Both the position numbers and the translations under genes were made by a program. From the IMG/VR virus record IMGVR_UViG_3300025767_000018, positions 1 through 59,097 of that record: DNA of 59,097 nucleotides. One strand, 5' to 3'. Under the pieces are notes generated by a model. That model was not told the DNA's origin. It worked only from the letters and a program-made list of their open reading frames with translations, and ran no database searches. How positions within the stretch are numbered: the stretch's first letter is position 1; each line of letters starts with the position of its first letter. Below are positions 7,058 to 54,204 of this stretch, in pieces. Source of the stretch: a virus.

Positions 7058-7736
7058 TAAATTTTTCCTTTAACCAATCAAAATCGTTTATTTTTTTAAG
7101 TGCTTCTACATTATCTTGATTTGCTCTTCCGTAACCAGTGCCTGCTGTTGCGCCCCTAATAGCATACTCACCATGAGGACGGTCTTTCCCTACTGTCTGC
7201 CAGACACGCAGACGATTTTCAGTTTCTTCATTATTTTGCCTATCTATCACTTTGCTCGACAGTTTAGTACACTCTCTAAATGCACTGCGCCAAGTGCTAA
7301 ATTCATCAACATTAAATGCTGTAACATTACTAACTTGATCCATTGGAATAAATTTATTACTAATGCTAGTTGTCATGTCAGTAGTAGTTGTATCCATATT
7401 AACTGTTGCTAGTCTTGGAAATAACTTTACTCCGCCATTACCGTATTCTAAATCATTGATAGGATTACAACTGCGCCATACATGTACTGCATCTCTATTA
7501 TTACGAGTAGGAACATACCCAAAGTCAAAGTCATCTACAATTTGTGCATCTGCATCAATTATCCATATCATAGGAGTAAATGCCTGTTTGGCTGCTTGAA
7601 TGTGCGCCTGATGTATTCCTTTAACTCCATGCACACGAGTAGCCCACGGAACTTTTCTTTTTAACACGTTCCAGTTTGTATCTGCTTCAGCTTCGTTGTA
7701 GCTTATAAAAATTACATCATACATTACTATTCTCAC
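7044..7736 (-). CDS. putative glycosyltransferase, paralogue of the 9051-9977 protein
   Basis: 230 residues. YDVIFISYNE at the N-terminus, VPWATRVHGVKG, then IIDADAQIVDDF (a DXD-like metal/nucleotide-sugar site) and NDLEYGNGGVKLFPR match the protein at 9051-9977 segment by segment, so the two are paralogues of a GT-A-like family. The start is a GTG at 7736: its MRIVMYDVIFISY aligns residue for residue with MKIIDYDIVYLSY of the paralogue. An ATG four codons later (7724) is the alternative. The two paralogues flank a radical-SAM gene. Sugar donor and acceptor are unknown. Confidence 0.6.
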   Translation of the reverse strand: MRIVMYDVIFISYNEAEADTNWNVLKRKVPWATRVHGVKGIHQAHIQAAKQAFTPMIWIIDADAQIVDDFDFGYVPTRNNRDAVHVWRSCNPINDLEYGNGGVKLFPRLATVNMDTTTTDMTTSISNKFIPMDQVSNVTAFNVDEFSTWRSAFRECTKLSSKVIDRQNNEETENRLRVWQTVGKDRPHGEYAIRGATAGTGYGRANQDNVEALKKINDFDWLKEKFNENI

Positions 7737-19746: not shown

Positions 19747-19754
19747 TATTTATC
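19747..19754 (-). promoter_or_regulatory. late promoter GATAAATA
   Basis: NATAAATA octamer on the minus strand, 25 nt before the ATG at 19721, overlapping the end of the giant gene. Confidence 0.65.
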
Positions 19755-22700: not shown

Positions 22701-25700
22701 TAACAGTTGAATATAATCCTCTTACAGGATTGTCACCAAGTTGTACACTGAATGTTGCAACTTCGCCACCTGGCTCGATATTATCTAATGATGATATTGT
22801 AGGAGTAGAATAATATCCTGCACCTGGAGATACAACAGTTACACTAGATATTTTGCCGGCGGTTCCTATATTTGCTTTTAATACTGCGCCGCCTGATCCA
22901 CTTAGTGTTAGTACAGGTGCAGTCTTATACCCGCTTCCTGGATTAACTACTTCAACCTTTACAATCTTATACCCACTGTTATCTAACCAATTCTTATTAG
23001 GATAATTTTCAAAATCAGCATTAACACCAATTAAAACACCATCTTGTATTTTAACGTTTTGTGGAACAATTTTGCCGTCGACGCTATTATATGCTGGAGG
23101 TAAATCAAAGTCAGTAACTGCTGTGCTAGTATTATCAAGGCTTTCGTAAGCACTTAAATATTCTCTAACTTTAGTTCCAAACGGTTTAACTTCTTTAATA
23201 TAAGACTCGTAACTTGGAAGATTATCATTATTAAATGTAACGTCTTTTCTTAAACTTCCAACATTATGTTTTGCTTTAATAAAGCTAGTTTTAAATGCCC
23301 AATCAATATAAGTTTGTTCACTAAATGCATAACGTAAATTTGCAAAGAACAAAGAATTAAACTTAACTAATAGATCGTCAATAAATAAATCATTTTTAAT
23401 TGACTCTAATATTATTCTAAGTTCTATTGTTGGCTCACTGTCATAAACTTTAGTATCAAAACTTATAGTATCAAACCCAGTAGCAGCTTCATTAGAATCG
23501 TAAAGTGTAGATTTAAACTGAATAGTGCCGTTTTGTCTTCCAATAGTACTATAATTAATTGTATAATCTTCAGTATCTTGGGAGTCTATTTTCTTTAGTA
23601 ACAGCCATCCGCCTGATCCAATTGAAGATATTTTTACAATATCGCCAATGCTATTGTTTAGTGATGTAAGTTCATAACTATTATCAATAAGGTAATCAAT
23701 TTCAGTTAGTTCACTGTAATCACTTGCATACCAATTTGAATAATCCCAATATAAATTTACATTATAGCTTTGGCTTTGTATTCTATTCCAAGAACGAGGA
23801 TCATTAATTCTTTCATATAGCCCCCATTTTCCTTGTATAGTTCTATCACTGTTAACTAGAACAGTAAATTTTCGTACAGTTAGTATTGGTGCATTATTAT
23901 AATTTTCACCAGGGGCTGTAACAGCAACACTTGTGATTCGACCAAAAGTATCAATTGCTGTTTGTAATATGGCGCCAGTTCCGTTGCCTGTTACAGTTAC
24001 CGTTGGCGGTACTCTATAACCTCTTCCTGGATCTACAATATTAACACTTGAGATTTTACCATTTATTACTACAGGCGATAATATAGCCTGTGTTGCTCTT
24101 GCAACACCTATAAATTCTAAGTCATCGATTGTGTCAACTTTAGCATCCCAATGATTTGACACTTCAGTTGGGGCAGGATCAAAATTAAAGAGTGATGTAA
24201 ACACTTTATCATCTACAATTAAGTTTTCGTTAAGTATAAGGTTAGTTCTTTCAATAAATTGCTTTAATGCTTCAGTACGATTTATAAACCAACTTTGCCT
24301 TGGTGTGTTTAATGCACCGTATTTTTGTTTTGTACTTAACAACGGATCCGGAACAATACGATCTTGTTCATCATATCCTATTAGACTGTCGTACCATTTT
24401 CTAATAATATCTTTATTAGGCTGACTTGTTTCAAGTCCTTCAGATATAATTTGATATTGTGTATGGATATTTTGGTCTTGATTTTCGATTGTCCAAAATT
24501 GGGTACTTAATGCAACATCAGTGCCTTTAATATATCCTTCTGCATTATAAAGTACAAAGCTAGTAGGACTAATTAATCCAGCAAATGTGTATCCTTTAGC
24601 AACAGGATCTTTAATGTAATCTGCAATATCACTAATATTAATGTTTCTAAATTCTACATTAGGCACTGTCTTTTTATTAGATACCCAAAAGTAATATATT
24701 GTTATAAATGTGCCAGCAATATTATCATATTTGCGTTTAGTGCTATAAGCTGTATCGCCATATAAACTAGTACCGCTATATCCTTTTGCAAATCCGTTTT
24801 CAGTATCAGCTTGGGCATCCCAGGCACTAGGTAATACATCTGACTCTACCCATTCGTATACATCAATAGTGTTGCCCTGGAAGACTTTAGACCAATTTTG
24901 TGTACTAAAAATTGTATCTCCTTGATAAGGATTATAAAATTTAGCGTTAGTTAAATTCCACCATACTTCACCAATATGTTCACTTCCCCAACTATTTGTT
25001 ATATCAATAATAGTGCCCGATGCTGTTGATAAATCATAAAGTGCCGGATCGTAATAAGTTTTAAATGTTAGTTCTTGTTCTGCAACACCTGCAACTTTTC
25101 CTTGAATTGGATCAATATAATCAAGCGGAGTTAGTAATAAATTTTCCTTTGTATCATAAAGGAACATTTTTTTAATCTTACTAATATCAACGGTTGACTT
25201 AGCTGCGCTATGTTCCGTCCACATAGGTTGCGTTTTATTATTGGCAAAATTTAAAATACGTCCTGTATAATTTCCGGAGATATCTACTTCCTTAGATAAT
25301 CCAACATATAAGTGATTATTTTTAGCAACAATATTTTGGCCAAACTCTTTTACAGCTCTATTAGATATTCCAATAGTTTGTGCAAGTAATAATTCCGCCT
25401 CTATTTTTTCGTAAACATATATAACTCCTGCGTCTTCATTAATTGTTTTAAAATCAGTAAAGCCGCCATCAAATACTGTGCTATAATTATCAAAATAAGA
25501 CCTAGATTTAGAATCTGCATTTTTAGCAGAAATATATAATTTTTCGCCGTCAAACTCAATTTTCCAACCAAACAATTCAGCTCTCTCGTTATTAAAACTT
25601 TTTAATGTTTGTGATAATACAAATGTTCCATTAATTTGTTTATAGATATAAACAATCCCTTGATTTTCAAGATAGTCATCGTTTAACGGGGCACTTATTG

Positions 25701-28700
25701 CAATTAATGTACCATCTGAGGATATTGATATTGACTGGCCAAATGCCGATGTTTTATCAGGAGCCGGAATTTCTTGAGATTTTTCAAAATGACCGTTATT
25801 AGATCTATATACAACTACTTGGTTAGGTGTCTGATTGCTATATAATGCATTAACAACTAGCACTTCTCCGGACAATGATACGTCAAACTGTGAGGCAAAA
25901 TCTTCAAGCCCGATCTGATTTAATATTGTAGTCGAGTCACTTACATTTCGACCAGTTGAATTAGGAATAAATCCAACATAGTCAACTAAGTCTGACATTG
26001 CGGTCCATTCATTAATACTAAATGTGCTAGGTGCTAAATTAGTTTTTGCAGCATATATTATACCTTCATTATATACAATGTCGTCTGTAAAATAAGTAAT
26101 ACCTTCACTAAATGTACCTTTAAACTTTTTATTTTTTGCATAATCCCAGTTATAGTTTATACCGTTTTCTTCACCGTTTTTAATAAAATATAATTTGCCT
26201 GGAGAATATTGAGTAGTAGTCCAGGTATTATTACTCCAAGAATATATAAAATTGTTAACTTTCCATTTGCTATCTTGAGTATTACCATAAACTATATACG
26301 TATTGATATCTGATATTTGCGGATCAATCTTTCCTGCAAAGTACGGAGTACCTGATATTGTTACACCGGTAATGGTTCCGCTAATACTTACGCCAGTAAC
26401 TGTTAATACAGCATCGTTGTTGCTATACCTTCCACCTAGTAAATTTCCTCTTATAACAATAGTATCATTAATATTAAAATTAGAGCCGCCGTCGACTATA
26501 TTTTCAATATTGTAATATAAATCTGGTAATGTTTGTGTACTATCATTAAGTGCAGGCGTTAATACTCTTACTCCAACTGTAAAAGATGTTTGAGTAGGTA
26601 AATCATTTGCCGAATCTAATGTTCCTATTGTATCTAAATCAAGTGAAGAACCAGCGTGAATAAATCCTCTATATAAATTATTATTCTTTGTAATTTTTAT
26701 AGAACTACCAAGTTTAAAGTTTTCTTGTTTTTCAGGTACAGTGTAATTTTCTGTTATACTATATTTTCCAGGAGCAATCTTTGAGTATACACTATACATT
26801 CCTTCGTTAGTCAATCCGCTAGCAGTTCCAGTCTTATCAGCTGGGATTTGATATATCTGAGTCCATTCATTATTAACAGCAGACGGTATGTTTGCAAGAC
26901 GTGCCCTGCCAGAAACTTCGTATTGTTGATAAAGCCAATATTCTATATCTAATAATCTAGAGCCTGATGATAAAGGAATAATATCCGAAGATTGGAAAAC
27001 AAATAACTTTCCAATACCTTCACTAGGCAGTCCTAAACTAACATATTGTATTTGTCCAATTGTTCTATCTACTTGGTATGTTGGATCAGGGTCTCCTGGA
27101 ATTTCTTTAAATTTAATTTCAGCATTGTCAGAGAATACGTATCCATTAGACCATGTTCCCACTACACCTTTAACAAACAACGTTGCATTAAGACCGTCTC
27201 GTTGATAATATGTAACTATGCCAGTTGCTCCGGTAGTCAAGTCTTCAACAGTTTGGCCAATCTTTGGCTCATAAGGAGTATCATCAACATTAAATTTTGT
27301 ATAATTTATGTTTATGTAACCATCCCATACATCGTACACTGTTTGCACACTATTGGTAATATCAGTTGACAATCCAATAGATGTTAAATCTCTAACAATT
27401 CCAGTGCCGTATTGGGGTAACTGGTTAACATAAAGGTTAATTAGATCACCCTGGTTAACCTCATCGCTAATCATCTTAGGTGCTCTAACTACATACAAGT
27501 TATTTAAGAATGGTGCATTAGACCCATATGCGCCAGGCAACCCTTGATAGCTTAATTTTTCTATGTATGCATTATATGTATTTTGACTACTAAATGCATT
27601 AGTTTTATAATCTAAGGAATTAGCATATAGTTTATTGCTATCTACACTATCTGTAATAACATCGTAGAATACTAAGCCACGTCCTTGATCTGTATTTTCA
27701 GTTCCAACAGTCGGAGTATAACTAGGAGTATCAATAAACCAAAACCCTCCAAATTGTGTGTTAGACTGAACACTACTAATTGGTCCTTGTTTAATATATT
27801 CTCCAATAAAATCGCCATCATCACGGAAAATACTATCAGTACTGTTAAACACACCATTAACATCTTTTAAGTATATTACTAATTCTGCACCATCGTTATA
27901 TACATAATCAACAATTCCGGATGCCGTTGTTGTTTGTAATATATCACCAATAGCAGGAAAGTTAGTTGACGCATTAATATATAGTACAACATCAATTTTC
28001 TTTTGTATAGTATGTGTTTGCTCTAAAAATTCTGCATTAATATTTGCAAATGATCCATTAAATGGGGAACGACTTGCAAGTGATGGCAAGTCTTGATTTG
28101 AGTAAGTTGTTTGGTTCCAAGCTACTTTAATTAGATCGTTTTCTTCACTACCTTCATAGTGTGCTAGCGGCGCTCTAATTAACATATGTGTCGCTGGTTG
28201 ATTTGCAAATGCAAGTTGTGCAGTTATTGGGTTAATTGCATAGTTACCAGTAACCAAAGTCGGTATAGATACTGCATTATCATTTTCTACGTCTAGCGTG
28301 TCAACAATTTGTGTAACAGAACCAAAACTATTAAATTCAATATTTTGCACAGCAGGTTGAATATCAACTAATGATTTCCAAAGTTGTTCATCTTTAGATA
28401 CAATAGTTCCCTTTGTGTAAGCAAAGTTAGGAAGAAAAGTTCCGCCTGGGGCGTATTTTGTTTTTACGTCAGATGCATTAGGCGAACCAATTATTATGCT
28501 ATTTCCGTCAGGACTAATTGCAACAGCTGACCCAAATGCTAGTGTGTCAGACGGTACCGGAAGTTGCACAAAATAATTACTTTCAAATCCATCTTCAGCA
28601 TCACTTGAATGCGGAGTAATACACTGATAAAATAAACCGTTATATATTATTATTTCGTCAACATAATCAATCTCCGGAGCCCAATTATTATATAGTTTTG

Positions 28701-31700
28701 CAACGTTGTCAGATACTTCGATTACCTGTGTTTGTGAAAAGTTTAATGAATCAGAAGATCTATTATAGACATATACCTTACCATTACCCTCGGTAGGTGC
28801 ACCAACTAACATAGTAGTATTTCTGTCATCAGTTGCTAATGCTGATCCAAAAGAATTGTCTAAAGAAGTTGTTGTCTTAGTAAGTTGTTGTTGTTCTAAA
28901 AGTAAATTTTCATTCTTGAGAACTTTCCATTTACCTGTGCCATTAACATTATCTATCCATATATAGTCATCAAGTGCAATACTTTCTTGTAGTATATTAT
29001 TTGCTGATGTAATATTTGCTGCGCGAACTTTTAAAAATCTTGTTATAGATCCAAAACATCTTGGTATTTCATCCTGGGCATTATTTGTAAGTACTGTAAT
29101 TACATTTTTGTCTACCGCAGATACTAAATAAAATCCTTCTAATTCAAATTTTTCGGTAGTTGATGATGCCGACGAGTCTTGGCCTGTATATTCTATATAA
29201 TTATTAAAACTATGTAATCCTATAACATCATTAACTGAAATTGTATCAGCATTAGTTGTAAGAGTTAATGTAAAGGAAGTAGTTCCTTCGGTTACTGATT
29301 CAACTCTATAATTAGTATCAATGTGTTTGTAAACATTCCAAGAAAGCTGATCATTTCCTACCCAAATATAATCATTTCTACTAATATCTGCAAAATTAAA
29401 ATCAGCAATATTGTTATAATTTGTTGCAACACCTCTTACATCATCAGGGTTTACATATCCTGCATCTTTTACATAACTTGCATCTACATACTTTTTAGGA
29501 AAAGGCTTATGGTCGTAATTAGGCGTTTTTTGATAAACTTCATAAGGAAGAATTCTATAAACTAAATCAGTTTCTTTACCTGTAGTACTTGTTACAAGAT
29601 CAATTGGCTGGGGAGTAAGTCTAAACTTGCTTTCATCCAGTAATAATTCGTATTCTGTAAATCCTTCACTTGCTCCATACTGACCGGCTTTAATTGCCCA
29701 TTCTTCGTAAAATTCTAAACTATCCTTATCTGCACTACTTAATACATCAAATAATTTTGTTAATGCGTTTTTAGTACCTTTGTCTTGTATCATACCTTGA
29801 TAAAATTTATATTGACTTACATCATCATTAATGATATTTTCAAGATACTGCCGCTTCTGGTAACCAATTAAATGTTGAGAAAGTCGCTGTTGTTCAGTAT
29901 CAAAATTATCCGAATCTAGGTCGTAAAAATCTGCAAACTGATTAGTTTTATATTCAAAGTTTGCATATAATCCTGCTTCTGGTTTTTTATCTAAACGATT
30001 CCAATCTATTGCATTAAACGATTCTGTACCAGTTAATTTAGTAGACGAGCTATAATAAAACTCTTTGTATTTTACAATACTGCCAATTGCATAATCAGTC
30101 CAGGGCATCCAACTAGTAGTTTTAGCTTCGTCATATACGAACCCTGGAATATTTAAACTGCCGTCCCATTCTTGGGTTTTATAACCAAGTACTTTAATGC
30201 GCTCTTGTCTATAGCCCGGTTGTGTGTCGTAAATAACATCACCAAATACTGTATTATTATCAATTAATAATGCGTGTTCTTTTTGTATAAGAGGAAGTTT
30301 AACAGCATATATTCCGTTAGCAGTAGTATCTTTCGAACGAATAACAAATTCATTAGGGGAACGTCCTAATAATGAAAATTCTTGTACTAATTTAGTGCCA
30401 TCTGATTGTAACAGAGAATAACCATAAAAACTATCAAAGATGTTATCGACCATTGCATATTCTGTTTGGAATTTAAGTTGCGCCGATGCTGGACTTAGTG
30501 TAATAACACTTCCTTCACCCCAGTTTTGTGTTGTCCAGAATAAGAATTCATTTACACTATGACGCCAGTTTAATACAACTTTTGCATCGCCTTCGTAATA
30601 ATCAAATACAAATCCTTGGTCTTCTAAATAATTGCCGTAGCCTAATAAAAAATCAACTACATCCTGTATACTAGTAAACAAGTGCCCGTAATCTGATTCA
30701 ATAACAATATTTTTATTAAATGTTTTTCTTAGAAAAGCATTTCTGCCACCTATTAATGGCAATGCCGCAAGTTTACTAAGATTAGTTGTGTCAAATTCTT
30801 GGCCACTTCTAAAATTAGATTTTACTCTATAATATGCTCCTTGGTATTCTAAATTTTGTCCTGGTATATAAGTCTTATTGCTATCCCAAATTAAATAGCT
30901 TTCACTTATTCCACCAATATTAATACTCGGATCTGCTTGAGAAGATATCGGCGCATAATATTTAAACGATGCAATTTCATTATCATATCCTTTAATTACA
31001 TATCCGTCACTTCTGCGTTCAATAATAACACCACTATACGAAACAGTCTTAACTGGTGTACTGGTATTTAAAAATACTTTATAATTTTCATCTGGGATAA
31101 AAACATTGCCGTCGTTTGTTGGACTACGGCTATCTAATATTAATTTAAATTTTTCTTTATCAGTAAATCCTGCTAACTTATGCCCTAATTGATTTTTAAT
31201 ATTTTTAATATTTGTTTTGTATGTAGTATAAGATGTAGTTACGTCAGATGTTAAATAGTTTGCAATATAGTTTACAAGCCCACTTGTATAAATTTGAGAT
31301 GTATCTTCGTATGTATTCGGAAATAATAAGTTAGTTAATTGAATTCTAGTACCTGTAGTTTTATACACTAGCTCATTTGAAACATTTCTTACTTGATTAA
31401 TTCTATCAAACCCGGTAGCAAAAAGTGTATGCGGTTTATTAATTGCAAAAGCTGAAATAATACTAAACGGATATTGACTACTTGATCTCCAAGCACTTTC
31501 TACAGGTGAACCATCACCAAATATAAAACTTCTGTCTAGTAGTTGATTATCGAATGTATTAATATAACCAGACTCGATTGGAGATACTAAGTTACCGTTA
31601 CTATCAACTGGAATGTGATTAACTAAGCCAGGGCGTTTGAAATTATTAAGAATTTTATATTTTACATTTGGTTGCCTTACAATACCTGCTTCGAGATCTT

Positions 31701-34700
31701 GCCACAACAATAAATTTTCTTTAGTATACGGAGCAGGGCCATATTGTGTTTCCCACCAAGTAGGCATAACGCTAAATCCAAGCATTTCCCAAGGATGTGT
31801 ATGAGGACGATCAGTATCGTACGCTTGTTGATAAATTTGTCTCCAAAAACCCGGCAACGATTTGCCAGATGGGCCTGTACTGCCTGCATAGTTAAATGTA
31901 AAGGAGTTAGTTCTATCAAAGAAATTATGTAACGTATAATCTTGATCAATTAATTTTGACCATTGTACAAAGTCTGGTAACATAACCCTATCGATATGTT
32001 TTTTAGTAACTCCTGTATCTCTGTGTTCGCCACCAATTAAACTGTTTATATCTAATAATTTATTGTCATATACTACTTTTATGTTATTATAGATTCTTTT
32101 TTCAAGTTCAAGTAGTAAGTCATCTCTGTAATCGTTAAACGCTATAATTTTACTACCGTCGTGGCCTTGAATAACTTCCTTTGGTGTTTGATACGTATTA
32201 TCTAAGTATTTTACAGGTTCATAAGAAGGGTATAATCCTAGCTTACTAGGAGTAGGCGGAACAAAGCTACCGTTAGTAGTTTCGTATTCATAAATATCAA
32301 TTACATCATCTGGATATTTAGTTGCGGTAACTATTACATAGCCTTCATTATTAAATGTATAATCTTTACCATGTACTAGTTGCACTTCGTTTAAATATAC
32401 TTGTACTGCTATTCTAGAAGGAGTACTTAAAGAAAAGATTGCCGACAAAGGATAAAATTTGTCGTCAGCATCAATTACAGTTGTTGTTAGTTTTCTAGTT
32501 GCACCAGTTGGGGTCATATCACTAAAGAAGAACGGCTGTGTAGGAGTCTTATTTTTGTTAATTTGTTCTAATATTGCATCTACATGCAGTTTAGTAGTAC
32601 CACTAAAAATTATATCTTCGGCTGTTTGAAGAAATAACCGTTTAAAAGTAGTATACTGATTCATTGCAAATTTTATACTTTTTATAACATTTGCATCGTT
32701 ATCTAACATATGATATAATGCAAGATTCATTGGCGAACTGTGTTGTACAAATCTTCGCCCTAATTCTGTTAAATTGCCAATATCTCGTAAATTACTTGTT
32801 CCTGGATACGTTCCTACAAATGTATCACTTTGTTCTACTATCGTAGCAATGTGATCGTTTACTTCGCCGAGCGTAAACTCTGTGATATTTTCGTTTGCTG
32901 GATTTCTTTCTAAGGATGCAGGAATTTCATAATAGCCATTTTCATTTTTTGTGGCAGATGATCTTGTCTTAATTATTACTACATCATTTATAGATAATGG
33001 ATTTGTGAAATTTACTGTTGCAATATTGTTAATATCATTAATAATAGTATAATTATTATCTTTAAATTGTAATTTGTTATTTAAATATACCTTAGTCCAA
33101 AGATCTGTTAGTTCTCCGCTATTATCATACATGTCAATTGGAAAAGACGTAATAGTATTATCAAACACATACTGTCTAATTACTAACTGTTCACTGGGTG
33201 TACTAACTTTTTTCCATCCAGATACTGAAACAAAGTTACTAAGATTTGAATATTTTCTTAAAAATCCAATATCAGTTTTTTTAGAAAAAGTTTCGTTTTT
33301 AAATGTATAAGTAAATGAATCATTTAGTAAACTAAAATTAAAAACAATGTCACCAATGTTATTAATACTCCTATAAGAAATAGGAATGGTTAATTCACTG
33401 TCAACAGCACCGGTACCGGTTTTATAACTGAATACTGTGTTACCAGTAAACGTAGACGATTCATAAACAGTTGTATCTGCATACGAGTTACCATCAATAT
33501 CAAAAATATCAAAAACAGGAGCCTGGTTAATTTTAATCTTATCCTGAGTAAGTTTCCAATCTGTGCCAGTATAATACAACATTTTACCTTTGTATGTTAC
33601 GCCATTTAAAATCAATACGACTTCGTTTGTTATTGGAATTGAATCTGTTTCTGGAATTAAAGTAATCTGTCTCTTTACTCCGACAGTCGGATCTGTAAAA
33701 TTAATAAATTTTACTTTAAATATCCTTCCAGCTACTAAAGAGTCTGGGTCTGCAGTAAACACAATTCGCATACCGTCTGCTAGATCAATTCCGTCAACAT
33801 TATATCCTTCGGAACCTTCAATAATAGAAAATGCGTCTTTTGTAAAGTCGTCAACAACATCAACATCTAATTTTGAAGAAGTTCCAAAGTTATGTAATTT
33901 TAGATTTGCTTCAAATTCAATAATAGGACGTTTGGCACGCTGTAATTGGTCTATATCAACGCTTTCATTGTTAGATAATGCACTTTCTTCAATAACACTT
34001 TTATGAAACCATCTATTATAACGACTCCATAAATTGCCATCTATACTTGCACGATTAATTACAATATAATCTTTATCTTCTGGATATCCGATTGCTTTAC
34101 TATACGGTAGTCTATCAAATCCTTGAGCATCAAATTGTATATCAATATCTTCTGTAAACGATGTAGGAACATTTAATTTAGTTTCAGAAACTAAATTAAT
34201 TTTATCACCTACCCCTTCAACATAAAATGTGCCTTGGGCATAAGTTGCAGGAACTACTTCACCAGTAAACTCGACCTTCATACCATTTGACAATTCAATA
34301 CCATTACCGCTTTTATAAAATTTCTTACCAATAACTTCGGTTTCAACATTAATAAAAGTTGCTTCGCTTATATCTTTAACAATAATAGTACCGCTTGCAT
34401 CTAAATCATTAGCTGCAACATAGTACAGCACATCCGGAGTAGATGTACCGAGTTGCAATGTGCTAACTCCTTTTTCTAATCCCTGTATACTAACACCATC
34501 AAATACTAAAATACTTGAACTATCTAATTCAAATCCATCTTCAAGTGTTTTCTGTGTTTTAATTGTAAAAGGTAAATTTGGAGTGTCAATGTCAAACTTG
34601 TAAGTAATTCCTCTATAAAGAGTAATTGTGGGATTCTGTGTCAATCCGTCTGGAGAAAATATATAAGTTTCGTTATCTGCGTTTTCACCAATACGAACAG

Positions 34701-35217
34701 TATATGTACTTTCAACGTCAACAGTATTTCCGGAAATGCCAATTGTTTGTGGGCCCGAAGGCAACCAATAATATTCGCGGAAATTACTAAACTTATCCCA
34801 ATCAATACTAGGGTTCCAAGCATAATATTCTTGCTGATTAACTACACTATGGTTGTCGTTAGATTTATTAAAGTTTGTTAACTGATTTGTAAAATCGTTA
34901 TAATCTTTATAAAAAGTAACATTACCTAACTGATCTTTAATTACTGCTGTAGGTTCTAGCTGATAGTTAAATCTATCAGCACTAACATCTCCAATATAAT
35001 TATCAGTAGGATTAAATGCTTTAGCTGTTTCTCTGCCAATATAACCATTAAGTTTTTCAACTACTCCCGGCTGTATTAATTGATCTAATGTACTATTTAA
35101 AAACTTTTTGTTTGACGGTGTTCTAAAAAATCTAGGAAGGAAAGCTTCACTTTTGCGTTTGTCGCTACTGCCTGGTACTGGCAAATTTGGTTCGTTTTGA
35201 TCGTTGTCGTAAGACAT
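19750..35217 (-). CDS. giant virion structural protein (5155 residues)
   Basis: One uninterrupted frame of 15.5 kb. The N-terminus (SSDKRKSEAFLPRFFRTPSN, then LDQLIQPGVVEKLNGYIGR, about residues 17-63) is a conserved start of large structural proteins in marine T4-like phages. FG-GAP-like repeats occur near residues 2120-2290 (AFGSAVAISPDGNSIIIGSP) and 3120-3320 (AFGQSISISSDGTLIAISAP). PGRGY/PGSGY modules (VDPGRGYRVPPTVTVTGNGT) are near 3720-3780 and 4085-4140. The last 650 residues contain several DGTT-type beta modules (FTADGSTTVFDL, YTGDGTTKEFSL). It follows gp6, where T4 has gp7 and gp8, so it is probably a baseplate-attached adhesin or wedge-associated protein. TAATG coupling to gp6. Confidence 0.75.
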   Translation of the reverse strand: MSYDNDQNEPNLPVPGSSDKRKSEAFLPRFFRTPSNKKFLNSTLDQLIQPGVVEKLNGYIGRETAKAFNPTDNYIGDVSADRFNYQLEPTAVIKDQLGNVTFYKDYNDFTNQLTNFNKSNDNHSVVNQQEYYAWNPSIDWDKFSNFREYYWLPSGPQTIGISGNTVDVESTYTVRIGENADNETYIFSPDGLTQNPTITLYRGITYKFDIDTPNLPFTIKTQKTLEDGFELDSSSILVFDGVSIQGLEKGVSTLQLGTSTPDVLYYVAANDLDASGTIIVKDISEATFINVETEVIGKKFYKSGNGIELSNGMKVEFTGEVVPATYAQGTFYVEGVGDKINLVSETKLNVPTSFTEDIDIQFDAQGFDRLPYSKAIGYPEDKDYIVINRASIDGNLWSRYNRWFHKSVIEESALSNNESVDIDQLQRAKRPIIEFEANLKLHNFGTSSKLDVDVVDDFTKDAFSIIEGSEGYNVDGIDLADGMRIVFTADPDSLVAGRIFKVKFINFTDPTVGVKRQITLIPETDSIPITNEVVLILNGVTYKGKMLYYTGTDWKLTQDKIKINQAPVFDIFDIDGNSYADTTVYESSTFTGNTVFSYKTGTGAVDSELTIPISYRSINNIGDIVFNFSLLNDSFTYTFKNETFSKKTDIGFLRKYSNLSNFVSVSGWKKVSTPSEQLVIRQYVFDNTITSFPIDMYDNSGELTDLWTKVYLNNKLQFKDNNYTIINDINNIATVNFTNPLSINDVVIIKTRSSATKNENGYYEIPASLERNPANENITEFTLGEVNDHIATIVEQSDTFVGTYPGTSNLRDIGNLTELGRRFVQHSSPMNLALYHMLDNDANVIKSIKFAMNQYTTFKRLFLQTAEDIIFSGTTKLHVDAILEQINKNKTPTQPFFFSDMTPTGATRKLTTTVIDADDKFYPLSAIFSLSTPSRIAVQVYLNEVQLVHGKDYTFNNEGYVIVTATKYPDDVIDIYEYETTNGSFVPPTPSKLGLYPSYEPVKYLDNTYQTPKEVIQGHDGSKIIAFNDYRDDLLLELEKRIYNNIKVVYDNKLLDINSLIGGEHRDTGVTKKHIDRVMLPDFVQWSKLIDQDYTLHNFFDRTNSFTFNYAGSTGPSGKSLPGFWRQIYQQAYDTDRPHTHPWEMLGFSVMPTWWETQYGPAPYTKENLLLWQDLEAGIVRQPNVKYKILNNFKRPGLVNHIPVDSNGNLVSPIESGYINTFDNQLLDRSFIFGDGSPVESAWRSSSQYPFSIISAFAINKPHTLFATGFDRINQVRNVSNELVYKTTGTRIQLTNLLFPNTYEDTSQIYTSGLVNYIANYLTSDVTTSYTTYKTNIKNIKNQLGHKLAGFTDKEKFKLILDSRSPTNDGNVFIPDENYKVFLNTSTPVKTVSYSGVIIERRSDGYVIKGYDNEIASFKYYAPISSQADPSINIGGISESYLIWDSNKTYIPGQNLEYQGAYYRVKSNFRSGQEFDTTNLSKLAALPLIGGRNAFLRKTFNKNIVIESDYGHLFTSIQDVVDFLLGYGNYLEDQGFVFDYYEGDAKVVLNWRHSVNEFLFWTTQNWGEGSVITLSPASAQLKFQTEYAMVDNIFDSFYGYSLLQSDGTKLVQEFSLLGRSPNEFVIRSKDTTANGIYAVKLPLIQKEHALLIDNNTVFGDVIYDTQPGYRQERIKVLGYKTQEWDGSLNIPGFVYDEAKTTSWMPWTDYAIGSIVKYKEFYYSSSTKLTGTESFNAIDWNRLDKKPEAGLYANFEYKTNQFADFYDLDSDNFDTEQQRLSQHLIGYQKRQYLENIINDDVSQYKFYQGMIQDKGTKNALTKLFDVLSSADKDSLEFYEEWAIKAGQYGASEGFTEYELLLDESKFRLTPQPIDLVTSTTGKETDLVYRILPYEVYQKTPNYDHKPFPKKYVDASYVKDAGYVNPDDVRGVATNYNNIADFNFADISRNDYIWVGNDQLSWNVYKHIDTNYRVESVTEGTTSFTLTLTTNADTISVNDVIGLHSFNNYIEYTGQDSSASSTTEKFELEGFYLVSAVDKNVITVLTNNAQDEIPRCFGSITRFLKVRAANITSANNILQESIALDDYIWIDNVNGTGKWKVLKNENLLLEQQQLTKTTTSLDNSFGSALATDDRNTTMLVGAPTEGNGKVYVYNRSSDSLNFSQTQVIEVSDNVAKLYNNWAPEIDYVDEIIIYNGLFYQCITPHSSDAEDGFESNYFVQLPVPSDTLAFGSAVAISPDGNSIIIGSPNASDVKTKYAPGGTFLPNFAYTKGTIVSKDEQLWKSLVDIQPAVQNIEFNSFGSVTQIVDTLDVENDNAVSIPTLVTGNYAINPITAQLAFANQPATHMLIRAPLAHYEGSEENDLIKVAWNQTTYSNQDLPSLASRSPFNGSFANINAEFLEQTHTIQKKIDVVLYINASTNFPAIGDILQTTTASGIVDYVYNDGAELVIYLKDVNGVFNSTDSIFRDDGDFIGEYIKQGPISSVQSNTQFGGFWFIDTPSYTPTVGTENTDQGRGLVFYDVITDSVDSNKLYANSLDYKTNAFSSQNTYNAYIEKLSYQGLPGAYGSNAPFLNNLYVVRAPKMISDEVNQGDLINLYVNQLPQYGTGIVRDLTSIGLSTDITNSVQTVYDVWDGYININYTKFNVDDTPYEPKIGQTVEDLTTGATGIVTYYQRDGLNATLFVKGVVGTWSNGYVFSDNAEIKFKEIPGDPDPTYQVDRTIGQIQYVSLGLPSEGIGKLFVFQSSDIIPLSSGSRLLDIEYWLYQQYEVSGRARLANIPSAVNNEWTQIYQIPADKTGTASGLTNEGMYSVYSKIAPGKYSITENYTVPEKQENFKLGSSIKITKNNNLYRGFIHAGSSLDLDTIGTLDSANDLPTQTSFTVGVRVLTPALNDSTQTLPDLYYNIENIVDGGSNFNINDTIVIRGNLLGGRYSNNDAVLTVTGVSISGTITGVTISGTPYFAGKIDPQISDINTYIVYGNTQDSKWKVNNFIYSWSNNTWTTTQYSPGKLYFIKNGEENGINYNWDYAKNKKFKGTFSEGITYFTDDIVYNEGIIYAAKTNLAPSTFSINEWTAMSDLVDYVGFIPNSTGRNVSDSTTILNQIGLEDFASQFDVSLSGEVLVVNALYSNQTPNQVVVYRSNNGHFEKSQEIPAPDKTSAFGQSISISSDGTLIAISAPLNDDYLENQGIVYIYKQINGTFVLSQTLKSFNNERAELFGWKIEFDGEKLYISAKNADSKSRSYFDNYSTVFDGGFTDFKTINEDAGVIYVYEKIEAELLLAQTIGISNRAVKEFGQNIVAKNNHLYVGLSKEVDISGNYTGRILNFANNKTQPMWTEHSAAKSTVDISKIKKMFLYDTKENLLLTPLDYIDPIQGKVAGVAEQELTFKTYYDPALYDLSTASGTIIDITNSWGSEHIGEVWWNLTNAKFYNPYQGDTIFSTQNWSKVFQGNTIDVYEWVESDVLPSAWDAQADTENGFAKGYSGTSLYGDTAYSTKRKYDNIAGTFITIYYFWVSNKKTVPNVEFRNINISDIADYIKDPVAKGYTFAGLISPTSFVLYNAEGYIKGTDVALSTQFWTIENQDQNIHTQYQIISEGLETSQPNKDIIRKWYDSLIGYDEQDRIVPDPLLSTKQKYGALNTPRQSWFINRTEALKQFIERTNLILNENLIVDDKVFTSLFNFDPAPTEVSNHWDAKVDTIDDLEFIGVARATQAILSPVVINGKISSVNIVDPGRGYRVPPTVTVTGNGTGAILQTAIDTFGRITSVAVTAPGENYNNAPILTVRKFTVLVNSDRTIQGKWGLYERINDPRSWNRIQSQSYNVNLYWDYSNWYASDYSELTEIDYLIDNSYELTSLNNSIGDIVKISSIGSGGWLLLKKIDSQDTEDYTINYSTIGRQNGTIQFKSTLYDSNEAATGFDTISFDTKVYDSEPTIELRIILESIKNDLFIDDLLVKFNSLFFANLRYAFSEQTYIDWAFKTSFIKAKHNVGSLRKDVTFNNDNLPSYESYIKEVKPFGTKVREYLSAYESLDNTSTAVTDFDLPPAYNSVDGKIVPQNVKIQDGVLIGVNADFENYPNKNWLDNSGYKIVKVEVVNPGSGYKTAPVLTLSGSGGAVLKANIGTAGKISSVTVVSPGAGYYSTPTISSLDNIEPGGEVATFSVQLGDNPVRGLYSTVKFDRTTGTYVYTSLSQTETFIASGSEFEFDLIWPMDLLKSNIKVYVNNQEALNSEYTYKNLLDITKGYDRHYGQITFTNAPAINKSVRIEYKKSVDLMQAQDRINNYYTPTTGMPGKDLNQLMTGLDYGGVEVTSLGFGKGQGWDSDGWYEDTWDSYDTTFEDEIFELDGSTISLDLAAPLANATVYNVYLNGVRIDDVNYGTATPVTNPNAICQSITGDGTTTIVFLDNDGLNLANQAGDIIIIRKSTSDGTYLPDPNSYDTSITGGALNYSTATGLNAEDIVIDGDGFVTATTSGGPEELVPGQVLDTIDIKVYERPQNGSSQITSRNYTGDGTTKEFSLDTSPLQANSLFVKVGYNIISAEDYTINYTTKTVTFNIAPVLNAKIHFAILGISGTEILDIDNFIADGSTSKFLTNVRFGTDLQYFIALNGQTLNNVIEESDDSYAYPNNAVVSFATPPEAGSVISYAFFKGDKQNFSEVSIDTFTADGSTTVFDLVQTPFNNEPSAWFSIVKVNNKILNAGYNRRFVTTAEKREYKLEEFQIPPGAVNNKQIKVFLNNKELAYNTEWSFTGTKGSAGSLVRLKPKVNQQDGDVLTVFITNDGEYRYGYFDSANEFVSTPGELYLDSAYNDGDIITVYQFSNHDSQGFDRQQYDAVDRVSLTVGTDDWYTYNHLTAGLIELAKPALDAQYVWVTLNGDLLTPSMHYYVTENKRYVKINISIEENDVIEILQFSNTILSNKYGWRQFKDILNRTHYKRLDDRDGIMLATDLNWYDQSITVTDGTTLPDPVPSTNIPGILFINGERIEYFVRNDNVLSQLRRGTLGTGVKAIYLEGENVYNQSQNATMPYRDETLTSEFLTDGTTATYELNFEPGEDGVNEFEVFVAGKRLRKNAISSYVQPIKNGDAIQVIAPDSPEGDVTLPAEFSIEGSTLTLLSVPEEPDIKVTVVRKTGIIWKDAGIRLSESESDISRFLRAATVDLPR

Positions 35218-48542: not shown

Positions 48543-48745
48543 TGATAGAAGATGACATTCACGATCAATTAACCAAAGCGTACTTAGAATACTTTAAGGC
48601 GAACGAAAATTTTGAATCTCGTTTGTCTCATCGTACACATTTATCAAGTAGAAAATGGTTACGAGAAATTAGAAAATTAGCAAAACTAAGGCAAGAAGAA
48701 ATACATGCTACATATGCAGCCAAGAAGGCAGCAGAAAAGCAATAG
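48542..48745 (+). CDS. small conserved basic protein
   Basis: 67 residues, helical and charged (KWLREIRKLAKLRQEEI). No known fold is recognised. It is co-translated with gp46 (TAATG), so it may act with the recombination or replication machinery; this is inference from linkage only. Confidence 0.7.
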   Translation: MIEDDIHDQLTKAYLEYFKANENFESRLSHRTHLSSRKWLREIRKLAKLRQEEIHATYAAKKAAEKQ

Positions 48746-48761
48746 GCACAATAAGTATGTT

Positions 48762-49196
48762 ATGCAATGGACTTATCAAGGCAAAACAATAGACCAACTA
48801 CCGGAAGGTTGTGAAGCATTTGTATACCTAATAACAAACAAAGTCAATGGCATGATGTACGTAGGCAAAAAACTAGCAAAATTTAAAGTAACAAAGAAAC
48901 CACTCAAAGGCAAGAAAAACAAAAGACGTAGCACTAAAGAAAGTGACTGGCAAACTTATTACGGTTCCAATGATAGACTTAATGCAGACGTTTTAGAGTT
49001 AGGCGAAGAAAATTTCATAAGAGAAATTATTCACATTTGTCCTAGCAGAGGCATAGCAAGTTACTTAGAGGCACGAGAGCAGTTTGAACGCAGAGTACTC
49101 GAAACAGATGAATACTACAACGGTATCATAAATGTTAGAGTTGGCGGATCAAAAATTCTTAAAGAACATCTACAGGCAAATCATTCCAACACCTAA
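48762..49196 (+). CDS. GIY-YIG-like endonuclease-related protein
   Basis: 144 residues from the ATG at 48762. FVYLITNKVNG and MMYVGKK (residues 20-36) match the paired GIY and YIG strands, and a later EAREQFER supplies acidic and basic residues. A lysine-rich insert (KKPLKGKKNKRRS) and WQTYYGSN follow. An earlier in-frame ATG at 48705 would add 19 residues read out of frame through the preceding gene and is less likely. It could be a free-standing homing-type nuclease or a conserved phage protein that kept only the fold. It ends directly before the non-coding structured region. Confidence 0.68.
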   Translation: MQWTYQGKTIDQLPEGCEAFVYLITNKVNGMMYVGKKLAKFKVTKKPLKGKKNKRRSTKESDWQTYYGSNDRLNADVLELGEENFIREIIHICPSRGIASYLEAREQFERRVLETDEYYNGIINVRVGGSKILKEHLQANHSNT

Positions 49197-49765: not shown

Positions 49766-50971
49766 ATGAAAGTACATCACATATTATCTGAAACATTAGA
49801 CGTAAAGCAAATTGACGGTATGTGGAGAGTATTTGATACTGTTAAAAATGCTGTTGTAGGTGATATTGGATTTGCAACGGCTGGCGAAGCTGAGGCTGAA
49901 CGAGATAGAGTCAGGGCCCGACCAGCAGCGGATACAGGTGCTAACAATAGAGCTAATACTCCTTCTCAAAATTCATTCTCTGCTGGTGCTCGGCCTGGAA
50001 CTCCTAACTCTAGTCAACTAACTAGGGGAGAGCAACGTAAACTTTCTAGATCTGGTAGTATTACTCGCGGCGGTGTTACCTATACTCGAGCAAACATTGC
50101 TGCTGCTGATGCTGAGCTTAAACTTAAAGTTGAGCCTGGATCTTTTGACAACAACAAACCTAATAGTAGTAAAAAAATAAATGATGACTGGCTTTCTAAA
50201 GCTAAAGAAGGTGCTGCAAAATCCTTTAAAAGTAAAGCATTTCAAAGTTTTGGAGGACTTCTTAAAGGCACTGCACTAACAAAAATACAAGCTATTTTTA
50301 ATGCTATGGTACTTGAAGAAACATTAGACGCATACTTACGAGCTGTTAGAGAATGGGGCACAAGTTTAAATGCAAACGATTCTGCTGGAGTAGCAAATTT
50401 TCAAAAAGCTGAAGCTGGAGATAAAAGTGCTGTGCTACCACCTAAGGTACAGGCTGCATATGTAGAATCAGTAAGACGATCTACTGAGCTCTTTATTGAA
50501 GGTATAGTAGGTCTTGTACTGACTTTGGGTCTTGCAGCAATACCAATAATTGGATTTTTTGGGTTAGGCACAGGCGGCCTTGGCTGGATTGCTAGTCTTA
50601 TTGCAGGTGGTGCACTTGTTTGGGGCGGCTCTACGTTAGTATACGAAATTCTAAGAAAAACCGGAGTAACTAATTCTATATCTAAATGGATTGGTAGTGA
50701 ATTTTTAGATCCGCCATATGTAATAACATTAGCATTAGGCGTAGATGGCTTTCAAGATCAACTAGGAGCAAAATTAGATATGTTTAGTAATGGCACTCTT
50801 GGACAGTTTGTTAGAGATGACGAATCTATTGAAGAATCAAATTCTCTAGGAGATTTTAAAGTTGACTCAGCTGTAGCAGATGAAGCAATTAAAGATTTTA
50901 TCAAATCTGATCCTAAATTAATAAAAGCATTTAGAGATGGTAAGAAAAAACTAGCTGCTAAAACAGATTAA
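49766..50971 (+). CDS. hypothetical late protein with two predicted membrane segments
   Basis: 401 residues. Charged, Ser/Asn-rich N-terminus, an amphipathic segment (KAFQSFGGLLKGTALTKIQA), then two long hydrophobic stretches around residues 240-297 (IEGIVGLVLTLGLAAIPIIG and IASLIAGGALVWGGSTLVY), and an acidic C-terminus with DEAIKDFIKSDPKLIKAF. There is no signal peptide. A late promoter suggests a virion or lysis-stage product: an ejected membrane-inserting protein or an inner-membrane factor are options. No family recognised. Confidence 0.7.
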   Translation: MKVHHILSETLDVKQIDGMWRVFDTVKNAVVGDIGFATAGEAEAERDRVRARPAADTGANNRANTPSQNSFSAGARPGTPNSSQLTRGEQRKLSRSGSITRGGVTYTRANIAAADAELKLKVEPGSFDNNKPNSSKKINDDWLSKAKEGAAKSFKSKAFQSFGGLLKGTALTKIQAIFNAMVLEETLDAYLRAVREWGTSLNANDSAGVANFQKAEAGDKSAVLPPKVQAAYVESVRRSTELFIEGIVGLVLTLGLAAIPIIGFFGLGTGGLGWIASLIAGGALVWGGSTLVYEILRKTGVTNSISKWIGSEFLDPPYVITLALGVDGFQDQLGAKLDMFSNGTLGQFVRDDESIEESNSLGDFKVDSAVADEAIKDFIKSDPKLIKAFRDGKKKLAAKTD

Positions 50972-50973
50972 AT

Positions 50974-51207
50974 TTATAATAACGGCAATCTAGTTTTTTC
51001 AGTAGTTTCAATATTGTCTTTAATAATTCTATTAAAAATTTCAAGATCATCATGGCTTATGTGATACATTAAGTCAATATAATTTATTGATCCACGCATA
51101 TACCATCCAATACGATACCTATCGTCTTTAATTTGTTTTATTTGTAGTTCGTATTGATCAACTAATTCTAATAGATCAGATTCCGGGAGTGTAAGAATCT
51201 GAGTCCG
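50974..51207 (-). CDS. -1 frame extension of gp26 (tail-assembly chaperone GT-like)
   Basis: 77 sense codons and TAA, with no ATG, GTG or TTG start after the in-frame TGA upstream of the slip site. It is reached by a -1 slip at 51213-51207 from the gp26 frame, giving a predicted fusion of 276 gp26 residues plus this tail (353 in total, 50974-52034). The tail includes LLELVDQYELQIKQIKDDRY, IGWYMRGSINYIDLMYH and DLEIFNRIIKDNIETTEKT. It fills the whole space to the convergent gene, whose stop is 2 nt away. By analogy with lambda gpG/gpGT it would be the T domain that binds the tape-measure protein. The coding nature is strongly supported; the function is inference. Confidence 0.8.
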   Translation of the reverse strand, partial: RTQILTLPESDLLELVDQYELQIKQIKDDRYRIGWYMRGSINYIDLMYHISHDDLEIFNRIIKDNIETTEKTRLPLL

Positions 51208-52034
51208 AAAAAATTTGAATAGTCCAATTCAACATTTGATCTATAATCGTGATTGCACTCTTCGTCTGAGCATGATACATCAATAGTAGGAGTGCGCCAC
51301 CGGTTGCTCAACTCGTATATATTATCTTTAAGTTTGTTATAGAACACACTATCATTTTGAGCAACGAAGTTTGATATTTCGTCTATGTTAGTTTCTTCAC
51401 TGATTTCATTTTTAACAGATTCAATATATGATATAGCAACTCTAAGATTTAGATTGTTTATTTGCGAATAAGAATTTTTACTATTTTTATTTTTTTCTTC
51501 GTCAGTCATATCGTTATTTCTTCCTATTTCGATTAACTGTCTTTCAAACGAATAATTTTCTATACTAAAGTTTGTCATTTGTCTATAAGTTAACGGTTTT
51601 AAATTAAATTTCAAGTCGTTAACTTCAAAACTATGAGCTGTTTCAAACGTTTCGTATTTTTGTATCATTCGAGTAAGACTTAGCGAACTTTGTGTTTCTG
51701 TATCGCATTTACTGCATTTAGTAGTAATTGGCATTTCGTCTCCGTAAGTAGCAATACGAATTGCAATTAGTACGTAGTCGATATCAAACCCAACAAGATT
51801 CCATGGATCTAATATTGAAGGAATACAACTTTTTATAACTTGTGCTGTTGACTCGCCAGTAAATAGTGCATCTGGAGTTTTAAACATAATTTCGTCCATT
51901 GCATTCATACCGAATACAGGAACTTGAACATACTGTTCATCTTCTATAATTGTTGAGTTATAATATTTTCCCTTGCTAGGTAAATCTATAAACAACTTAG
52001 GCTGTCGTTGATATTGTTGTAGAAAACTGCTCAT
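51168..52034 (-). CDS. gp26: baseplate hub protein gp26 / tail-assembly chaperone (unshifted form)
   Basis: 288 residues (T4 208). LFIDLPSKGKYY and EDEQYVQVPVFGMNAMDEIM at the N-terminus, CSKCDTET and CSDEECNHDY cysteine pairs, and LDYSNFFGLRF at the end are the gp26 family landmarks. The last 12 residues after Phe276 are replaced in the predicted frameshift product. The gene is divergent from the tape-measure-like gene, with which it shares a 76-nt control region. A CATAAATA late promoter is upstream. T4 gp26 is needed for hub assembly; a chaperone role is suggested by the frameshift. Confidence 0.82.
   Translation of the reverse strand: MSSFLQQYQRQPKLFIDLPSKGKYYNSTIIEDEQYVQVPVFGMNAMDEIMFKTPDALFTGESTAQVIKSCIPSILDPWNLVGFDIDYVLIAIRIATYGDEMPITTKCSKCDTETQSSLSLTRMIQKYETFETAHSFEVNDLKFNLKPLTYRQMTNFSIENYSFERQLIEIGRNNDMTDEEKNKNSKNSYSQINNLNLRVAISYIESVKNEISEETNIDEISNFVAQNDSVFYNKLKDNIYELSNRWRTPTIDVSCSDEECNHDYRSNVELDYSNFFGLRFLHSRNLIY
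51176..51213 (-). promoter_or_regulatory. programmed -1 ribosomal frameshift signal
   Basis: In the gp26 frame the codons read AAT TTT TTC GGA, giving the slippery heptamer T TTT TTC (51213-51207). After 4 nt comes a perfect 8-bp stem, TCAGATTC (51202-51195) with GAATCTGA (51183-51176), loop of 11 nt. Heptamer, spacer and stem all fit the known -1 frameshift architecture. Confidence 0.82.
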
Positions 52035-52110: not shown

Positions 52111-54204
52111 ATGGCAGACGAAGTAGTTTTATCGCAAACAAGTATTAATCAGTTAGTTGATGCCCTAAAATCTGTTGGTAACAACGCTCCTCGTAATAAT
52201 ACTACACCCGGCAACAGTAGAAATACAAATTTTAATACTAAAGAAGTTGGCGAAGCTTATACAAGTCTTACTGGATTTATTGCAGCAGCTGGCGGAGATG
52301 TAACTAGTTTTGCTAAAGCAATGGGCGGCGGAGCCCTTGGTATAAAATTATTCTCTGGTATTATAGAAAACAGTGCTGGATATATAGAAGGCCTTAACAA
52401 TACATTTCAAAATCTTTCTAAAGTTGGAGCAGGCTTTAATGGTGACTTAGGAGCACTTGCAGCTGCAGCATCAAATACACGTATGCAAGTTGGCGAATTT
52501 GCAGATGTTGTTGGCACAAATGCAAAAGATTTAGCCGGTCTTGGCGCAGGTGTTAATCAGGGAGCAAAGCGTTTTTCAGAATTGTCTAGAGCAATGTTTG
52601 AAGATGGTCAAGTTATTGAAGGCATGCTCAATTTAGGGTATAATATACGAGAATCTAACGAAGCATTATTAGATAACGCAACATTGTTATCAAGACAACA
52701 GCGACTAACTGGAATGAGTGACAATGAAGTTGCTCAAGCTACGCTATCAATGGCTGCAAATATGGCAGAGATAGCTGAAATAACTGGCAAAAGTGCTAAA
52801 CAGCAGCGCGAAGAGCTAATTGATGCTAATAGAGATGGTAAAAACATTGCTGCAAATAGAGCACTAGAAGCACAAGGTATCAAAGATGCTTCTCAGACAT
52901 TTAATCAAGTATTTACGGCGTTAGGTGAACTAGGTCCTACTGCGCAAGCATATGCGCAAGATATGAACCAAGCTAGAGCACCGTTGTCAAAACTTACGCA
53001 GAACTTTGAAACAATTGCACCTCAGACTGCTGCAATTATTAAAGAAATGGATGCTGTAAGAAAATCAAATTTAACAACAGCTGAAAAGACTGCAAGGATA
53101 AGCGCATTAGAAGCACGAGCACGAGCAACATACGCAACAGAAATGAAAAGTTCTCAGGTATTAGCTGCTGCTAGACTTGGTCAAATTAATGAACGTGGTG
53201 CAACGGCTGCTGACATGCTGTCAGAGTTTAATCCTTCTTTACAAGCTATTGAAGCAGTTCAAGCAGAAATGGCCAAAGAACGTGCAGAAGCATCTGGTCA
53301 AGAATATACAGGTGGATACGGCGATGTTACAATGGCAGAAGCTGAAACAGCATTGCGCCAATCTATTGCTGATCGTGTTAACGCTCAAACAGGTGGCGGA
53401 GATAATGAACAAGCTGTTTCAAGAGAAATTAATCTTGCAACTATAGGATTAGCAAATACTGCTGCTAGTGTTAATCAAGAAATAGGAAGAAATTTAAGTG
53501 CTAATACAAAATTACAAGACGCTGTAGCAGCAGCATATCGAGGGTTAGTTAAAAGTTCGGGGGTAATTGCAGCAACAGCAGAAAAGGCACTGGGTGTGTT
53601 ACCTGGAACAGTTGATGATGAAAAAATATCATTAAATCCATTTAGAGAAGTATTTAAAGAATCTTCCTTTGCTAACGGTGCATTACGGACAAACATAGAT
53701 AATTTTGATGACATTGCTGGTGTTATGTCTTCTCAAACTAAAGAAGATATTCGTAATATGTTTAATGACCCGCCTGGTAAAGCACTTGGTGGAAGTGTAA
53801 CAGCTAACAGCCCATATCGAGTAGGAGAATATGGCGAAGAAACTTTTGTGCCTGGAATGGATGGTGCAATTATACCAAACATGAAAACGGCCCTAAACAG
53901 AATGCCAGACATAGCTAAACAATTAAAGCAAGAAATGGAACAATTCGGCGCACCAATAACGAAAGCAGCAAAAGCAGCAGCTGCTGTTAGTGGTCAAGAA
54001 TCTAAAAAGCTTGAATCTATGAAGACAGCAATGACAAATTTGAAGAGTGACGATATTAGCGCATTAATACAACATACTCAAACCACTAACGAGCTTTTAA
54101 CACGTTTACTTGGGGTAAATACTACACAAATGCGTGTAGGCGAAAAACAATTAAAAAGTTCTAGGGGCGCAGGAAACTTAATGACAGGACTAGGTAGAGC
54201 ATGA
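52111..54204 (+). CDS. tail tape-measure-like protein
   Basis: 697 residues, mostly alpha-helical and alanine-rich. GDVTSFAKAMGGGALGIKLF and FQNLSKVGAGFNGDLGALAA near the N-terminus are typical of tape-measure proteins. Near residues 560-592 is GGSVTANSPYRVGEYGEETF followed by VPGMDGAIIPN, the GG...VGE.G.E.F.P...G.I.P motif common to their C-terminal part. A fully extended helix of this length is about 100 nm, similar to a T4-type tail. It would be the counterpart of T4 gp29. It overlaps gp20 by 4 nt. Confidence 0.78.
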   Translation: MADEVVLSQTSINQLVDALKSVGNNAPRNNTTPGNSRNTNFNTKEVGEAYTSLTGFIAAAGGDVTSFAKAMGGGALGIKLFSGIIENSAGYIEGLNNTFQNLSKVGAGFNGDLGALAAAASNTRMQVGEFADVVGTNAKDLAGLGAGVNQGAKRFSELSRAMFEDGQVIEGMLNLGYNIRESNEALLDNATLLSRQQRLTGMSDNEVAQATLSMAANMAEIAEITGKSAKQQREELIDANRDGKNIAANRALEAQGIKDASQTFNQVFTALGELGPTAQAYAQDMNQARAPLSKLTQNFETIAPQTAAIIKEMDAVRKSNLTTAEKTARISALEARARATYATEMKSSQVLAAARLGQINERGATAADMLSEFNPSLQAIEAVQAEMAKERAEASGQEYTGGYGDVTMAEAETALRQSIADRVNAQTGGGDNEQAVSREINLATIGLANTAASVNQEIGRNLSANTKLQDAVAAAYRGLVKSSGVIAATAEKALGVLPGTVDDEKISLNPFREVFKESSFANGALRTNIDNFDDIAGVMSSQTKEDIRNMFNDPPGKALGGSVTANSPYRVGEYGEETFVPGMDGAIIPNMKTALNRMPDIAKQLKQEMEQFGAPITKAAKAAAAVSGQESKKLESMKTAMTNLKSDDISALIQHTQTTNELLTRLLGVNTTQMRVGEKQLKSSRGAGNLMTGLGRA

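Follow-up and report, generated by a model that had tools for sequence, protein, structure and literature searches.

We analysed the gp26 locus of a virus fragment from IMG/VR (IMGVR_UViG_3300025767_000018), here called the window, which is 59,097 bases long and whose numbering is used throughout. The gene lies on the minus strand (51168..52034), ends at the stop codon 51170-51168 and encodes a protein of 288 amino acids (aa), the short form of a putative tail assembly chaperone (TAC-N-like). Close to its end, the same strand carries the heptamer T_TTT_TTC (51207..51213) in the phase X_XXY_YYZ, which a tandem -1 slip requires. The -1 frame is free of stop codons from 51228 up to the one at 50976-50974, and a slip at the heptamer would join 276 residues to 77 others, giving a fusion of 353 aa. 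The added part (TAC-C-like; 50974..51207, minus strand, 77 codons plus the stop) begins within gp26, and the 12-codon tail that follows the slip site in the 0 frame (GLRFLHSRNLIY; 51171..51206, minus strand) is also read in the -1 frame. Beyond the gp26 stop, 196 nt separate this gene from the end, at 50971, of a convergent gene (49766..50971, plus strand, 401 aa) for which the PHROG scan gave no match. An earlier note on this DNA had proposed a programmed -1 frameshift here, and all its coordinates proved correct: the 288 residues of gp26, the heptamer, the spacer, the -1 frame and the predicted 353-residue fusion. The sequence also confirms that the -1 frame fills the 196-nt space, its stop lying 2 nt from that of the convergent gene.

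The conservation of the heptamer was then examined in homologous genes. The scan of viral contigs for gp26 homologues gave 80 loci, with 31-77% identity, and the readable homologous loci amounted to 82 (62 distinct), with identity down to about 22% and 10 named jumbo phages among them. The proposed slippery site passed this check in full, an in-phase T6 run being present in 82 out of 82 readable loci, as an exact TTTTTTC in 81 and as TTTTTTT in one (XacN1, which has T7). Wherever a viral-contig locus can be read in frame through to the gp26 stop, TTTTTTC stands in phase close to the end of the gene. The sole exception among the contig loci (L018) has a broken 0 frame, with a stop after 28 codons, the rest of the gene being present; this early break is either an assembly error or the mark of a dead copy. 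The same arrangement was found in Atu_ph07, Phosso, PA5oct, BF, RaK2, 121Q, CBB, Vibrio 2.275.O, SCTP-2 and XacN1. Codon choice at the site is atypical: TTC accounts for 125 of the 771 phenylalanine codons elsewhere in the gp26 genes (16%; TTT 646), while 61 of 62 distinct loci use it as the second phenylalanine codon of the slip site. Among 29 representatives with less than 60% identity, the agreement of the three synonymous choices has a log10 P of about -32 given codon use, a value that assumes independent representatives and serves as a guide only. Because it is conserved across relatives, the arrangement of heptamer and -1 frame is not a product of chance, as judged from these comparisons.

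The -1 frame also bears the marks of a coding sequence. The extension measures 70-79 codons across the readable homologous loci, and the open -1 frame continues for about 190-225 nt beyond the stop of gp26 wherever the contig extends that far. Past this stop, the ratio of nonsynonymous to synonymous substitutions (dN/dS) is 0.157 in the -1 frame, against 0.845 and 1.92 in the other two frames, which indicates purifying selection on the frame that the earlier note had taken to be coding. From the 26 clade-1 loci, no stop was found there in the -1 frame, while the means are 4.8 and 9.5 in the other frames. Differences in the -1 frame are concentrated at third codon positions (5311, 2670 and 9261 at positions 1, 2 and 3, respectively), and a 28-sequence alignment of the extension shows a mean column identity of 62%, with invariant R, K, W, MRG and P. 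No ATG, GTG or TTG occurs in the first 35 codons of the window's -1 frame, and no conserved start codon was found at its head among the readable homologous loci, which bears out the proposal that the frame lacks a usual start codon.

The core and the extension were modelled separately with AlphaFold2, using alignments of the window and viral-contig sequences. The extension alone is predicted with a predicted local distance difference test score (pLDDT) of 87.6, with helices at residues 9-36, 43-49 and 52-72. The 0-frame tail past the slip site has a pLDDT of about 31-43 and is predicted to be disordered, and its length among homologues ranges from 1 to 12 codons or slightly more. Because this tail is disordered and variable in length, the -1 product appears to be the constant, folded one. 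A search of BFVD with the core model retrieved T4-like baseplate hub proteins (best E-value 1.2e-18). No match was obtained in fold searches of the PDB with the core or with the extension, the sequence search found no solved relative, and NCBIfam has no name for gp26 or for the tape-measure candidate described below.

We then placed gp26 among known families. It matches PF12322 (T4_baseplate) in Pfam at 1.3e-12, with 48.3 bits for a curated cut-off of 24.5, and phrog_150 ("baseplate hub") in PHROGs at 1.3e-14, and it contains two cysteine pairs, C-X2-C (C107, C110) and C-X4-C (C255, C260), that are nearly invariant among homologues. Both gp26 (8.8e-64) and gp51 (3.9e-52) of phage T4 belong to PF12322. 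T4 gp26 ends near GLKEFFELL, without the heptamer, and gp51 continues for roughly 45 residues more. The two are paralogues serving as short and long forms; as the short and long genes of T4 they are so read from the title of the Vladimirov study (see below), from the passages that cite it and from the present tests. The frameshift was also found in the cyanophages Sf-FS3 and P-SSM3, in the Rhizobium phages IC12 and RL38J1 (TTTTTTG), and in the Aeromonas phage phiAS5, whose fusion spans positions 10-281 of the 282 of phrog_150. Matches to phrog_634 ("baseplate hub assembly catalyst") were obtained with gp51 and with the -1 frames of three of these phages (Sf-FS3, IC12 and phiAS5). With hhalign, the fusions of the window and of the jumbo phages align over their full length with the cyanophage, rhizobial and phiAS5 fusions (E-value 2.7e-17), these with gp51 (6.4e-23), and gp51 with gp26 (3e-21). 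The slippery site, its phase, coding selection, the predicted fold and homology are thus established by sequence comparison.

The history of the site was addressed with a tree of the core. With midpoint rooting, each side of the deepest split contains frameshift lineages. Nested within these, T4 gp26 and gp51 group together; phiAS5, which has the frameshift, is their sister (91/86), and gp51 forms a single clade (100/100). The heptamer-less phages Cygsa01, S8 and YC form one group (92/98); their gp26 genes have ATTTTC or CTTTC at the site, and in Cygsa01 a TAATG overlap would permit coupling. Because both halves of the tree contain frameshift lineages, the simplest history is that of an ancestral frameshift replaced by a duplication in the T4 lineage, which needs 3 changes on the core tree. 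On balance, we favour a T6C slip ancestral to the RaK2-like jumbo, window, cyanophage and rhizobial T4-like lineages, with T4 gp26 and gp51 arising by duplication followed by loss of the slippery site, and with a second loss in phages of the Ackermannviridae type. In RB43, the open reading frame (ORF) before gp51 is unlike gp26, and the short-form gene was not found in the stretch examined.

We hold it to be highly probable that this single gene yields two proteins by a -1 slip, forming a tape-measure chaperone pair as in T4 gp26/gp51. Most ribosomes would end at the gp26 stop and produce the 288-aa short form. A minority would slip back one base on T_TTT_TTC, with the help of an RNA fold that lies a few bases further on, and would read 77 more codons to give the 353-aa long form with its all-helical C-terminal domain. 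Many copies of the short form would coat the tape-measure protein, while the extra domain of the long form would recruit tube or baseplate hub subunits, a division of labour that is carried over from the lambda model and may hold here. Since the fusion aligns with the T4-like fusions and these align with gp51, and since gp26 and gp51 are the short and long forms of T4, gp26 very probably makes a G/GT-like tape-measure chaperone pair. From these comparisons we infer the slip itself, its efficiency and the chaperone role. The earlier note's view of gp26 as the counterpart of gpG in a T4-like phage is supported, the gene belonging to the T4 gp26/gp51 family, whose members are treated as tail assembly chaperones.

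Some observations weigh against this reading. The candidate stimulatory hairpin of the window (51176..51202, minus strand), a perfect 8-bp inverted repeat TCAGATTC-(11 nt)-GAATCTGA that follows the 4-nt spacer GGAC, has a minimum free energy of -11.2 and a z-score of -1.08, 27 out of 200 shuffled sequences folding as well, and 19 close relatives do not preserve its pairs. The profile of the window extension against the gp51 C-terminus reaches a probability of 25%, which is not significant, and hhalign of the extension against the single T4 gp51 gave no match. Because the direct comparison is not significant, the link between the window and gp51 runs through the intermediate phages. The record of phage CBB labels the gp26 counterpart CBB_250 a structural protein. 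Finally, the evidence for the divergent neighbour (52111..54204, plus strand, 697 aa) as a tape-measure protein consists of a motif at the C-terminus and a single short match, and PHROGs places the RaK2 and CBB counterpart of this neighbour in the category "head and packaging". The motif is the tape-measure-like C-terminal GGSVTANSPYRVGEYGEETFVPGMDGAIIPN, and the match covers residues 555-592, which align at 63% with a protein of Roseobacter phage CRP-406 annotated as "tape measure protein". Nearly all loci with sufficient flanking sequence have a large divergent gene beside gp26. What the earlier note had said of a divergent, tape-measure-like neighbour stands for the orientation and the C-terminus, and the identity is probable only.

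The downstream RNA was considered across the family as well. In the relatives, the positions of the window stem are paired in 64.5% of cells, compared with 64.6% in shuffles, with no pair changed on both sides, and RNAalifold found no consensus structure in either clade; the window stem was thus rejected as a conserved element. Of the hairpin put forward in the earlier note, the 8-bp stem, the loop and the spacer do exist in the window, but the hairpin is neither conserved nor significant alone. Folding was raised in the region 4-54 nt past the heptamer, where 34 representative loci have a mean z-score of -1.40, the values at other positions lying between -0.33 and +0.12 (Mann-Whitney, p = 4e-6). 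This excess is local, since the controls included coding sequence flanking the site in either direction. Several relatives have long downstream stems (L040, L077 and L038), which differ from one another. Because folding is raised there family-wide without conserved pairs, a downstream stimulator is likely at this location, with no single sequence behind it.

Among other explanations, the one that survives best, while remaining unlikely, accepts the short and long pair and takes gp26 for a structural baseplate hub subunit instead of a tape-measure chaperone. Database names say baseplate hub, the CBB label points the same way, and older T4 genetics put gp26 in the hub (PMC3004832). Against this, T4 gp26 and gp51 are classed as chaperones of hub assembly, and the virion contains no gp51 (PMC3004832). 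For jumbo phage CBB, the stretch of the virion mass spectrometry table from CBB_247 to CBB_251 gives 29 peptides for the divergent neighbour CBB_251 and includes neither gp26 (CBB_250) nor the -1 ORF (CBB_249) (PMC5259590). The short and long architecture is, moreover, typical of tail assembly chaperones (PMC12846349), which also counts against a hub subunit. In the record of the T4-like Acinetobacter phage Stupor, gp26 is named "tape measure protein assembly chaperone".

It is much less probable that the polymerase, not the ribosome, slips. In this case, one U would be added in the T6 run and the mRNA would encode the same 353-aa fusion; the homopolymeric run, the identical product and the T7 of XacN1 are compatible with it. 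However, six T are short for efficient polymerase slippage, T6C is retained even though T7 would also encode FF and TTT is the favoured codon (646 vs. 125), and a stem just downstream of the run fits ribosomal slippage. Marginally weaker still is the case for a separate small gene, in which the -1 frame would be translated from its own start via translational coupling at the gp26 stop. Annotators have assumed such a gene in Phosso, BF, 121Q, CBB and cyanophages, and some phages (Phosso, 121Q and Cygsa01) do have a start codon that overlaps the gp26 stop or comes after it; an own start may even be the real route in a few heptamer-less phages (Cygsa01, and perhaps YC and S8). Yet neither the window nor most relatives have an ATG, GTG or TTG near the start of the -1 frame, the frame is conserved up to the slip site, and a separate gene gives no reason for a conserved TTTTTTC, so an independent gene is unlikely on these grounds. 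The idea of an artefact or pseudogene, in which a homopolymer indel from sequencing or assembly splits one 353-aa gene, has practically no chance of being right, for although homopolymers are error-prone and L018 has its early 0-frame break, the same two-frame layout recurs in some 80 contigs of many different samples, as well as in named isolates that were sequenced by different groups, a recurrence across relatives that excludes sequencing error.

If the -1 slip operates as proposed, the long protein is being missed in genome records, where it is left out or named as a separate hypothetical gene or as a "hub assembly catalyst". The public annotations of PA5oct, RaK2 and Atu_ph07 omit the -1 extension or call it in part. 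The conserved site would let annotators add the long form across a large group of myophages. The contrast with T4, in which two genes replace the slip, makes the ratio of short to long form and the role of the extra domain testable. In phages whose tape-measure gene is poorly identified, the arrangement also singles out the divergent neighbour for that role.

Elsewhere in the window, a giant open frame of 5155 aa (19750-35217, minus strand) lies between baseplate wedge and tail-fibre-like genes; it carries a carbohydrate-binding module (CBM_5_12) as well as FG-GAP repeats and is perhaps a giant adhesin or tail fibre. Close after a gp46-like exonuclease gene, a SegE-like GIY-YIG endonuclease (48705-49196, plus strand; PF19835, 3e-32) is probably a homing endonuclease, and the "NAD synthetase" label of its best match in PHROGs looks mistaken. 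At one end of the window, two radical SAM proteins (344-1456 and 7717-9063, minus strand) are encoded among consecutive non-structural genes.

Tail assembly chaperones of T4-like phages were reportedly the subject of a 2022 study by Vladimirov, Gautam & Davidson (Virology 566:9-15), known to us through papers that cite it. According to the passages of two such papers, it deals with poly-T slippery sites in the TAC-N genes of T4-like phages (Vladimirov et al. 2022, as cited in PMC12846349 and PMC10885494). These chaperones (PF12322, phrog_150 and phrog_634) form the same protein family as gp26 and comprise, as in the window, a short form and a longer form with a C-terminal domain. T4 has two duplicated genes and no slippery site, whereas one gene would serve for both forms in the window. 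The likeness to gpG/gpGT of lambda lies in a fusion with a C-terminal domain and in the expected tape-measure role, and the window shares with lambda-type pairs a conserved in-frame heptamer near the end of the short gene and a coding -1 frame without a conserved start. In contrast, no sequence relation to gpG/gpGT was seen in the PHROG scans, and the tape-measure gene lies directly downstream in lambda, while the candidate of the window is divergent and not co-directional. The lambda heptamer, GGGAAAG, also differs from the TTTTTTC of the window. In other phage families (Vandenendeviridae/Andersonviridae), the GTTTTT chaperone locus of Pseudomonas phage Adele resembles the window by its slip arrangement, with a conserved poly-T -1 slip at the end of the chaperone gene and a continuous -1 frame (PMC12846349). 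No description of the frameshift in RaK2-like jumbo phages was found in the literature searched. The idea of a frameshifted T4-like chaperone is not new, and the site is kept across very distant relatives.
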